Virus record (IMG/VR): IMGVR_UViG_3300026116_000002
Location: 1 to 64,000 of that record
Reading direction: 5' to 3' (one strand)
Length of the DNA: 64,000 nt
DNA from: a virus
Shown one piece after another: positions 7,144-32,891 of this stretch. How positions within the stretch are numbered: the stretch's first letter is position 1; each line of letters starts with the position of its first letter. Below the pieces are notes generated by a model that was not told the origin of the DNA, made no database searches, and saw only the letters and a program-made list of their open reading frames with translations. The translations under genes and the position numbers were made by a program.

Positions 7144-7897
7144 GGTTTGATCTCCTTTTTGAATTTACGCGTCACTTCGTCCCATTTTGGGCTGAAGTGT
7201 GAAATTACGTTAAATTTCGTCCCGTGCTATTAAATTCGTATTCTGAGCGCTTTTAGGCGCTGTTTTTGCTGACCGGGGCGAATGTCCCGTGGCCTGATCT
7301 GTGGCCCCTGTGCGCCTCTGTTGGGCGGTTTTCGTGCTGTTCTGTGGCGTTATTGCTGTTCGATCGACGTTCTGTTTCTGTTTTGATCACGATTCCTGTA
7401 CGCTTTTACAGTATAACATTTAAGTTCAGGCTTGTCAAGCGAAATTAGCGTAAATTCAGGCTGAAATGACCCGATACACGTAATTTCAACGCGATTTCCC
7501 GGAATATTTCTCAAAAAAGTTTACCATCCATCTAAGATCGGGTGTTCGGTAGCTGTTTTTGCCCCAATATACTAGTTTTGATATGGCTGTAAAGTGGCAT
7601 ATGGCCGTAAATTGCATTTATCGTCCCTTTTTACATGAAGCCTGAACATGTAAGTTATACATTTGCGTATGGATAGTACCCATAACTTGCAATTATCGGC
7701 TATGGGTTTTTAAACCCCCTTAATTACACTTTTTACAACTATATATATATATATTATACTAAAGGCACTTGAGTGTAGTACACTCACTCGTTCTTACAAG
7801 TGTATACCAGAATCACCGCATATACCCCTTGTGCATATTTTTAGAGAAATACCCCGGCGCAAGGGGCTTGAAATTGCGGGTTTGCCTCGGAGTTTGG
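7144..7897. other. AT-rich non-coding control region
   Basis: About 750 bases with no believable gene and clearly higher AT than its surroundings. It contains the leftward promoter at 7410-7438, an AT alternation (ATATATATATATATTATACT, ~7742-7761), a perfect hairpin TGAGTGT-AGT-ACACTCA (~7771-7787), a hairpin GGGTTT/AAACCC (~7703-7720), AGCGC/GGCGCT with T-run (~7238-7265), and near-repeats of GAAATTA-C/G-GTAAATT (~7201, ~7440). It may be an origin or a regulatory hub; this is inference. Confidence 0.5.
7410..7438 (-). promoter_or_regulatory. Leftward sigma70 promoter
   Basis: On the - strand TTGACA (7433-7438), a 17-bp spacer and TATACT (7410-7415). It lies ~270 bases upstream of the gene starting at 7143, giving a long leader. 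Confidence 0.8.
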
Positions 7898-14227: not shown

Positions 14228-14264
14228 CAAAAATTTTTTAAAAAAATTTTGCCCCGAAAATAAA
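14228..14264 (+). repeat. 37-bp AT element upstream of a promoter, copy 1
   Basis: CAAAAATTTTT-N-AAAAAA...TTTT, then a C-rich bit and GAAAATAAA. It is close to identical to 15908-15944, also just upstream of a promoter. It may act as an UP element or bent-DNA site. Confidence 0.7.
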
Positions 14265-14265
14265 T

Positions 14266-14310
14266 TACTATACATTTCAACTTGACACAACCTGCCCACA
14301 GCGATATACT
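14266..14310 (+). promoter_or_regulatory. Rightward sigma70 promoter with conserved upstream box
   Basis: TTGACA (14282-14287), 17-bp spacer, TATACT (14305-14310). The box TACTATACATTT (14266-14277) four bases before the -35 is repeated exactly at 18178-18189 before another consensus promoter. Confidence 0.85.
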
Positions 14311-16325: not shown

Positions 16326-16554
16326 CAAGTACCAGAAGCAGAAGAACTACCGCGCCCGTACCATCGCGGTCGTCAAGGCCGTCCACGCGGCCCTGCCCCG
16401 CATGATCGCGGCCTACAACGCCCTCCCTGACGACCTGAAGCGCCCCGAGGACACGCAGTTAACGACTGACAAAGCCGTGCTCGTCAGCGTCACGCTCGAT
16501 GCGGTGTGTCAGGTGCTGGAGCGGATGGCAAATAACACAGGAGATCACGTATGA
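16318..16554 (+). CDS. Hypothetical helical protein
   Basis: 78 residues, MPDKYQKQKNYRARTIAVVK ... ALPDDLKRPEDTQLTTDKAV, basic N terminus and helical C terminus. It overlaps both neighbours by 8 and 4 bases. No family recognised. Confidence 0.6.
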   Translation: MPDKYQKQKNYRARTIAVVKAVHAALPRMIAAYNALPDDLKRPEDTQLTTDKAVLVSVTLDAVCQVLERMANNTGDHV

Positions 16555-17000
16555 AAGCCTTAACATTAACTCAGCCGTGGGCGACACTCGTCGCGATCGG
16601 TGCCAAGCAGGTAGAAACGCGCAGTTGGAACACTAACCATCGTGGAATCATTGCGATCCACGCGGCTAAGGGTTTTCCGAACAAGGCGAAGCGTCTCGTT
16701 GAGACCAAGCCGGTTACCGAGGCGCTAAGTCACAGCCCGGAATACCTACGGCCAGGAGTATGCCTCGGTCGGATCATCGCCATCGCGGAAATAGACGGCG
16801 TTTTTTCGACCAACTACGCTAGCGAGGTCTATAAACTCAGCGAGCAAGAGAGGGCGTTCGGGGATTATTCTCCGGGGCGGTTCGGCTGGAAACTAAAGAA
16901 TGTGCGTAGGCTGAAGGTTCCGATTGAGGTGAAGGGGGCGCTCCAACTTTGGAATTGGCAGCCTCCGCTTGATCTCGATGAGTTGCTGGAGGGTGCTTAA
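16551..17000 (+). CDS. ASCH/PUA-like domain protein
   Basis: 149 residues. It starts MKALTLTQPWATLVAIGAKQ and VETRSW, the hallmark of ASCH-domain proteins (PUA-like fold), followed by GIIAIHAAK, VCLGRIIAIAEI, and FGWKLKNVRRLKVPIEVKG. ASCH proteins bind RNA or hydrolyse modified nucleosides (YqfB acts on acetylcytidine). The GxKxxExR-type motif GAKQVETR and lysine are present. Overlaps the previous stop (ATGA). Substrate unknown. Confidence 0.8.
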   Translation: MKALTLTQPWATLVAIGAKQVETRSWNTNHRGIIAIHAAKGFPNKAKRLVETKPVTEALSHSPEYLRPGVCLGRIIAIAEIDGVFSTNYASEVYKLSEQERAFGDYSPGRFGWKLKNVRRLKVPIEVKGALQLWNWQPPLDLDELLEGA

Positions 17001-18177: not shown

Positions 18178-18222
18178 TACTATACATTTTAGCTTGACAT
18201 GATCACTCGGCAGTGCTATAAT
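18178..18222 (+). promoter_or_regulatory. Rightward consensus sigma70 promoter
   Basis: TTGACA (18194-18199), 17-bp spacer, TATAAT (18217-18222), both perfect; box TACTATACATTT at 18178-18189 as at 14266. Confidence 0.9.
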
Positions 18223-31967: not shown

Positions 31968-31990
31968 CCACTGTGCACCCCACGCACAAC

Positions 31991-32020
31991 CTCCCGGCAC
32001 CCCTGCCGGGAGGTTTTTCT
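31991..32020 (+). terminator. Rho-independent terminator after the capsid genes
   Basis: CTCCCGGCA (31991-31999) and TGCCGGGAG (32004-32012) form a 9-bp stem with a 4-base loop, followed by GTTTTTCT. Confidence 0.9.
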
Positions 32021-32028
32021 GTCACTCC

Positions 32029-32059
32029 TTGCTATTAAAACCGGTTTTTGGTGTATACT
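32029..32059 (+). promoter_or_regulatory. Promoter ahead of the structured RNA
   Basis: TATACT (32054-32059) with TTGCTA (32029-32034) at a long 19-bp spacing. Predicted start ~32066, just before the 5' arm of the RNA at 32073. Confidence 0.5.
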
Positions 32060-32072
32060 TGAGTTGTAATAT

Positions 32073-32242
32073 GCCGCATCGCCGCTATGGGCGGGGTCAG
32101 AAGCAGGGAGCGGTTAGAGTCCGTAAGTCAGCCAGGGATGCGATTGATTACCAAGTCTCATGGCGAGCAGTGCACTAATCAAGCAATGTGACGCATTTAG
32201 CGACTGCTTCTCGTGGGCTGGTTCGAATCCAGCCGTGTGGCC
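32073..32242 (+). ncRNA. Structured RNA closed by a tRNA-like acceptor and T-arm
   Basis: GCCGCAT (32073-32079) pairs with GTGTGGC (32235-32241) as an acceptor-like stem. GGCTGG-TTCGAAT-CCAGCC (32216-32234) is a canonical T-arm with the exact TTCGAAT loop. A D-arm-like hairpin CCGC/GCGG follows the 5' arm. AGAAGCAG (32099-32106) pairs with CTGCTTCT (32204-32211). Inside, ATGCG/CGCAT (32138/32192) and TTGATTA/TAATCAA (32144/32176) nest. At ~170 nt it is too long for a tRNA and shorter than tmRNAs I know; the helix linking D-like and T parts is tmRNA-like. Own promoter and upstream terminator suggest a separate transcript. Confidence 0.6.
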
Positions 32243-32249
32243 TTAAACT

Positions 32250-32891
32250 ATGAAACCTCTATTTCTTCAGTACGCCAACAATGAAATCCTCAAAGGCATG
32301 ATCGAGGATCATGCCGAGCGCCACATTCACTACTGCGAACGTCATGACTACCATTACTTCCCCGTCATTCGCTTGGGCGAGCACTTCGATTGGTTTGATA
32401 AGATCAGGCTAATCTTGGAGGCTGTGAAGTCGGGCAATTATTCGCACGTGTTTTGGATCGATGCGGATTGCTTCGTAGTTGATGGGACGCAGGATATGAG
32501 GGATACGCTGCCTTATTGGGCATCATATGCGTTCTGTATACACCCCAAACCATGGCAGGGCCAATCATTTCATTTTAACGCAGGTGTTCAGTACTATGAT
32601 GCTGGGACCGATGCGAGAGATTTCCTTGGTGCAGTAAAAGGTATGGAAGGTCAGTGCACTGATGAGTATGATCAGACCGCTATTAATGATCTATTGATAC
32701 TTAATAACATAGGGTATCGTACGTGGCAAATGGGCTTGAGTATACTCCCCGACAAATGGAACTGCACGCTAGGCGTGCACGACCTGTCGCCGGATAACCC
32801 GCCAGTGCTCGCCGCGTTCCACGGCCACGAGTTCCCGGTGCGACGGCGCGAGGTCATGCGCGAGTGGGCGGAAAGGCTGCCGTATCGATGA
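32250..32891 (+). CDS. GT-A fold glycosyltransferase (galactosyltransferase-like)
   Basis: 213 residues. MKPLFLQYANNEILKGMIED then DKIRLILEAVKSGNYSHVFW and WIDADCFVVDG, which holds the DxD metal motif, then FNAGVQYY and NDLLILNN. This is the pattern of GT34-type glycosyltransferases. It starts the cassette of six sugar/methyl genes. Acceptor unknown, possibly a virion protein. Overlaps the next gene by four bases. Confidence 0.7.
   Translation: MKPLFLQYANNEILKGMIEDHAERHIHYCERHDYHYFPVIRLGEHFDWFDKIRLILEAVKSGNYSHVFWIDADCFVVDGTQDMRDTLPYWASYAFCIHPKPWQGQSFHFNAGVQYYDAGTDARDFLGAVKGMEGQCTDEYDQTAINDLLILNNIGYRTWQMGLSILPDKWNCTLGVHDLSPDNPPVLAAFHGHEFPVRRREVMREWAERLPYR

Follow-up and report, generated by a model that had tools for sequence, protein, structure and literature searches.

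What occupies the non-coding gap of 234 nt that follows the head-gene terminator of a tailed phage, directly ahead of a putative glycosylation module? The phage is represented by a 74,887-bp IMG/VR virus record (IMGVR_UViG_3300026116_000002), and the window, i.e. the whole stretch of DNA analysed here, comprises its positions 1 to 64,000. A first-pass annotation placed in this gap an RNA of about 170 nt, closed by an acceptor stem and a T-arm, and offered three readings of it: a minimal tmRNA-like RNA, a tRNA with an insert or a tRNA mimic. Our preferred reading, adopted tentatively, is that a phage tRNA locus here carries the gene of a structured, tRNA-derived RNA that does not decode.

The phage and its relatives

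Against 50,697 phage records, MCP and portal gave no tblastn match at all, and every terminase match was below 60% identity. The phage is unclassified and belongs to a tailed-phage group without close kin in the phage collection. Searches with terminase, portal and MCP recovered five related viral contigs (L003/L008, L007, L028/L034, L033 and L032). The terminase of L003/L008 is 76% identical to that of our phage in its best segment, and L003 is regarded here as the sister phage; its MCP is about 39% identical. The same searches found no closer relative. From roughly residue 538 on, the terminase ORF of our phage (window 21323-24106) contains a Hint (intein-like) domain, which is missing from the L003 terminase. 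A recombination-directionality-factor-like protein (PF18897; L002 10399-11220 on the minus strand, corresponding to record 70398-71219) hints at a temperate phage.

The candidate locus

The terminator and the -10 box that the first-pass annotation had noted ahead of the RNA are both there (Table 1). TATACT recurs as the -10 of TTGACA-17-TATACT sites at 7438 (minus strand), 13760 and 14282. The -35 element of the candidate, TTGCTA, is poor and lies 19 nt upstream. The -10 of the candidate hence fits the style of the phage, whose other sites read TTGACA-17-TATACT or TTGACA-17-TATAAT, whereas its -35 does not. As to promoters elsewhere in the window, two early ones (14262-14310 and 18178-18222) have the upstream sequence ACTATACATTTYARCTTGACA in common, and the promoter-like sites near 14282 and 15951 are preceded by C/A-rich low-complexity stretches with terminal AAAATTTTT blocks.

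Downstream, the first ORF of the putative glycosylation module begins 8 nt past the acceptor stem. It has no Shine-Dalgarno sequence, and no terminator was found between the candidate RNA and this ORF.

Table 1. Features of the candidate locus in window coordinates
Feature	Positions	Strand	Basis or remark
Intrinsic terminator ending the head-gene operon	31988..32015	+	12-bp stem, T run
Promoter-like site TTGCTA-19-TATACT	32029..32059	+	9/12 matches; -10 at 32054-32059
Core of the tRNA-like RNA candidate, ~169 nt	32073..32241	+	sequence elements, pair probabilities
Acceptor-like stem, 5' strand GCCGCAU	32073..32079	+	pairs with 32235-32241, mean probability 0.95
D-like hairpin CCGC-UAUGG-GCGG	32082..32094	+	mean probability 0.69
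8-bp helix, 5' strand AGAAGCAG	32099..32106	+	probability 0.90; position of anticodon stem or tmRNA helix 2
Hairpin GCGG-UUAGAGU-CCGU, alternatively D-loop-like sequence GCGGTTAGAG	32110..32124	+	probability 0.72
Hairpin GCCAGGGA/UCUC(A)UGGC within the insert	32131..32164	+	outer four pairs 0.89; first stem of a possible pseudoknot
UUGAUUA (32144-32150)/UAAUCAA (32176-32182)	32144..32182	+	7 Watson-Crick pairs; second stem of a possible H-type pseudoknot
8-bp helix, 3' strand CUGCUUCU	32204..32211	+	pairs with 32099-32106, probability 0.90
T-arm GGCUGG-UUCGAAU-CCAGCC	32216..32234	+	strict T-arm, probability 0.99
Acceptor-like stem, 3' strand GUGUGGC	32235..32241	+	pairs with 32073-32079
First ORF of the putative glycosylation module	32250..32891	+	213 aa, no family match

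Elements of the predicted RNA

Ensemble folding recovers the 7-bp acceptor-like stem, the canonical T-arm with its TTCGAAT loop, the D-like hairpin and the 8-bp helix joining the two halves, all of which had been claimed in the first-pass annotation. Two of the seven acceptor pairs are G-U (G-C, C-G, C-G, G-U, C-G, A-U, U-G). C32242 stands in the putative discriminator position, and CCA is not encoded. The 8-bp helix consists of Watson-Crick pairs throughout, ends 4 nt before the T-stem and encloses about 97 nt.

A further helix, UUGAUUA/UAAUCAA, had been described as nested within these. Its strands are indeed complementary, but its probability in the nested ensemble is near 0, as it competes with a better hairpin (32131-32164). 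Since one strand lies inside this hairpin and the other beyond it, the helix is possible only as a stem of an H-type pseudoknot. With loops of about 5, 5 and 11 nt, such a pseudoknot would be sterically reasonable.

Membership of the tRNA and tmRNA families

The candidate resembles a tRNA (RF00005) in its TTCGAAT T-arm, its acceptor-type stem and its D-like hairpin. It differs in its length of 169 nt, in the 8-bp helix enclosing about 97 nt and in a T-stem and acceptor of 6+7 pairs as compared to 5+7 in tRNA. An anticodon arm with a 7-nt loop is absent, both directly and after removal of the insert. Covariance-model searches with tRNA and tmRNA models, proposed in the first-pass annotation as a check, did not place the RNA: RF00005, RF00023 and the tRNA-like-domain model RF04321 had no match at the candidate at E up to 10. 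Across the whole record, these tRNA and tmRNA models found the known tRNA only. No family was assigned at either gathering or permissive Rfam thresholds; the best match, to tRNA-Sec, reached 15.4 bits against a cut-off of 47 and was carried by the T-arm.

ARAGORN at default settings called neither a tRNA nor, with -m, a tmRNA at the candidate. The idea of a tRNA with an insert is not supported: an intron-aware ARAGORN run (introns up to 300 nt, default threshold) was empty, and none of 889 excisions, each leaving 68-95 nt and scored by ARAGORN, yielded a tRNA. Relaxed settings (-ps60/-ps70) produced several mutually overlapping models within the same 500 nt, which we took as noise. The sole tRNA called in the window lies at 882-956 on the minus strand (ARAGORN Pyl, anticodon cta). 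Its anticodon arm has 3-4 pairs and an 11-12 nt loop without a clear U33, and its identity is therefore doubtful.

The outline of the candidate also resembles that of a tmRNA: a longer helix connects its tRNA-like ends and may enclose a pseudoknot. The order of its parts, i.e. acceptor, D-like hairpin, helix, pseudoknot candidate, helix and T-arm, is that of a reduced tmRNA. A minimal, tag-less tmRNA-like RNA composed of tRNA-like domain, helix 2 and one pseudoknot could by analogy titrate SmpB. Precedent exists. Tag-less tmRNAs and tmRNAs with a two-codon tag are known (PMC11915505), and an RNA made of the tRNA-like domain only, from mycobacteriophage DS6A, inhibits tmRNA (PMC4131195, citing Mao et al. 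2009); titration of SmpB has been proposed for this RNA. The tag-less tmRNA-like RNAs of DS6A, of jakobid mitochondria and of some plastids (PMC4131195, PMC11915505) are likewise non-decoding and tRNA-like, and one of them is phage-borne. They are recognisable by homology to tmRNA, however, and the candidate is not; with DS6A the comparison is one of published descriptions.

Against a tmRNA-like RNA speak the missing matches to RF00023 and RF04321, the missing ARAGORN call and a length of less than half that of a tmRNA. The tmRNA D-loop motif is absent as well, and the G-U of the acceptor is the fourth pair, not the third (no G3-U70); the terminal pair is G-C, in line with the rule for tmRNA given in PMC4131195. 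There is no convincing resume codon or tag. GCA-AUG-UGA lies directly 3' of the putative pseudoknot, and inspection revealed no tag-like peptide; a two-codon tag of this sequence was judged weak, as it would directly adjoin the pseudoknot. Altogether, we regard the minimal tmRNA as highly improbable. The candidate is therefore filed under neither family, though its outline is like that of a reduced tmRNA.

The corresponding locus in related phages

In the sister phage L003, MCP and a small head gene are followed by a terminator, a reverse-strand ORF, a TTGACA/TATAAT promoter and a tRNA array (16343-16570) encoding tRNA-Thr(TGT), tRNA-Trp(CCA) and tRNA-Ile(GAT). After the array come about 330-335 nt of non-coding DNA, a terminator, a further promoter and then the next operon. 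Our phage has the candidate in the matching gap, likewise behind the corresponding small head gene and a terminator, and CCA is unencoded in both. Because tRNA genes stand at the same place in a related phage, the candidate is most likely derived from a tRNA. The best DNA match among the relatives aligns the 3' ends of the candidate and of the L003 tRNA-Ile; it is weak (77% over 31 nt, E 0.13) and falls at the same place. No tRNA-like gene occupies the equivalent position in L007, L028 or L033. The simplest account would be that this lineage has a slot for RNA genes between the head genes and the next module, holding tRNAs in L003, a tRNA-derived RNA here and nothing in other relatives.

A homologue of the whole RNA was not found in DNA searches of phages and related viral records. 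A pattern requiring the D-loop-like GGTTAGAGTCCG together with a T-arm had three matches in viral and genome collections, none of them a homologue of the candidate; they are ordinary tRNA genes or partial tRNA copies. Tandem partial 5' copies, with TCCGCC...GGCGGATT in place of the anticodon part, precede an intact tRNA in two unrelated bacterial MAGs (L036 2130-2300 and L037 200-330). The stretch between tRNA-Ile and the terminator in L003 (16570-16905, ~335 nt) is itself fairly structured; it had no phage match, nor any significant one in Rfam.

The arrangement in L003 also bears on the possibility that the gap holds a cis-acting structured 5' leader of the glycosylation operon, its fold controlling translation of ORF 32250 or its cleavage setting the 5' end of the mRNA. 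The short distance from acceptor stem to ATG, the missing Shine-Dalgarno sequence and the missing terminator would suit a leader, and the first gene of the operon following in L003 is likewise preceded by a leader, of some 90 nt. In L003, however, the tRNAs are set apart from that operon by the ~330 nt, the terminator and the further promoter. Several late genes of our phage also lack a Shine-Dalgarno sequence, so its absence is not special, and a leader would not need a canonical T-loop. We hold a leader to be unlikely.

Chance, decay or an RNA gene

The folding energy of the whole RNA is no better than that of shuffled sequences (z -0.19), and the claim therefore depends on specific elements. 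These were assessed by tests picked after the sequence had been seen. Keeping the T-arm fixed, we dinucleotide-shuffled the 201 nt upstream (n=4000). A 7-bp acceptor partner arose in 3004 of the shuffles (75%), because GUGUGGC pairs freely via G-U. Acceptor and 8-bp helix occurred together in 511 when G-U was allowed, and in 15 when the helix had to be Watson-Crick. On average, a Markov copy of the 74.9-kb record contains 0.43 strict T-arms, counting both strands, which by proportion comes to about 7e-4 in the 234-nt gap. Two are present in the real record, that of the candidate and that of the called tRNA. Of 20 Markov copies of the window, 2 matched a descriptor of the whole architecture. 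Support is thus strong for the T-arm, moderate for the 8-bp helix and hardly any for the acceptor stem.

A chance line-up of tRNA-like parts in an ordinary intergenic stretch would agree with the folding energy, the frequent acceptor stem, the two descriptor matches and the lack of a homologue. It would leave as coincidence that T-arm and 8-bp helix come together in the one gap that holds tRNA genes in the sister phage, and we consider it quite improbable.

Decay has more in its favour. The gap may contain a functionless tRNA remnant, of which the T-arm and the 3' acceptor strand survive and the rest has drifted. This is consistent with the syntenic tRNA array in L003, with the 3' 31 nt being the only part that matches this array, if weakly, and with an acceptor pairing expected by chance in an RNA of ordinary folding energy. 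Moreover, the locus is missing altogether in three other relatives and is therefore dispensable. A remnant does not readily explain a perfect 8-bp helix 4 nt before the T-stem, rare in the shuffles, nor a T-arm and 13-bp stack that are both intact. A remnant might also take the form of an attP copy of the 3' end of a host tRNA; no integrase was found among the subset of the phage's proteins scanned. Taken by itself a remnant is somewhat unlikely, and it is nearly as likely as the RNA gene; the odd anticodon arm of the called tRNA favours decay.

For an RNA gene speak the only strict T-arm of the record outside the called tRNA, the rare Watson-Crick helix beside it, a non-coding gap with a -10 box following a terminator, and, at the equivalent place in L003, a strong promoter with three tRNA genes, to one of which the 3' end is weakly similar. 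A tRNA-like RNA gene is plausible here, and the syntenic array supports it independently. On the other side stand the lack of a homologue, the ordinary folding energy, an acceptor stem not significant alone, the poor -35, the missing terminator after the RNA and the called tRNA, whose odd arm would fit decay of tRNA genes.

Discussion

For the RNA gene that we tentatively prefer, we infer transcription, processing, stability and function from the arrangement of its elements. Transcription would begin right after the head-gene terminator and continue into the glycosylation operon. The stack of acceptor and T-arm (7+6 pairs) would be recognised as pre-tRNA, RNase P would cleave in front of G32073, RNase Z or its equivalent would cleave close to C32242, and CCA would be added. 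This would free a stable RNA of some 170 nt from the downstream mRNA and release the mRNA of ORF 32250 7-8 nt upstream of its start. With the anticodon arm replaced by the 8-bp helix and about 97 nt of other structure, such an RNA could not decode. Any activity would lie in the tRNA-like end, which might mimic a tRNA or titrate a host factor that binds tRNA. In the complete picture, the phage would encode a non-decoding tRNA-like RNA, about 170 nt long and pseudoknotted in its insert, that belongs to neither the tRNA nor the tmRNA families known, is matured by RNase P and titrates or redirects such a factor; this is decidedly unlikely to hold in every part.

The tRNA cluster of phage T4 encodes stable RNAs that are not tRNAs, RNA C and D, for which we know of no function. 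Compared by description, they are likewise phage RNAs somewhat longer than a tRNA and located at a tRNA locus. Experiments in PhiKZ revealed a noncoding RNA of about 100 nt (PMC8545117). To the extent that it could be tested, the candidate has no sequence kinship to the PhiKZ RNA or to the published tmRNA-like RNAs cited above.

If the gap holds a remnant, it represents ordinary loss of a tRNA gene. If the RNA gene is real, a phage RNA has retained the end that directs tRNA processing and given up decoding. It would be akin in idea to the tmRNA-inhibiting tRNA-like RNA of DS6A and yet stand outside the known families. It would then mark a route from phage tRNA loci to regulatory or decoy RNAs.
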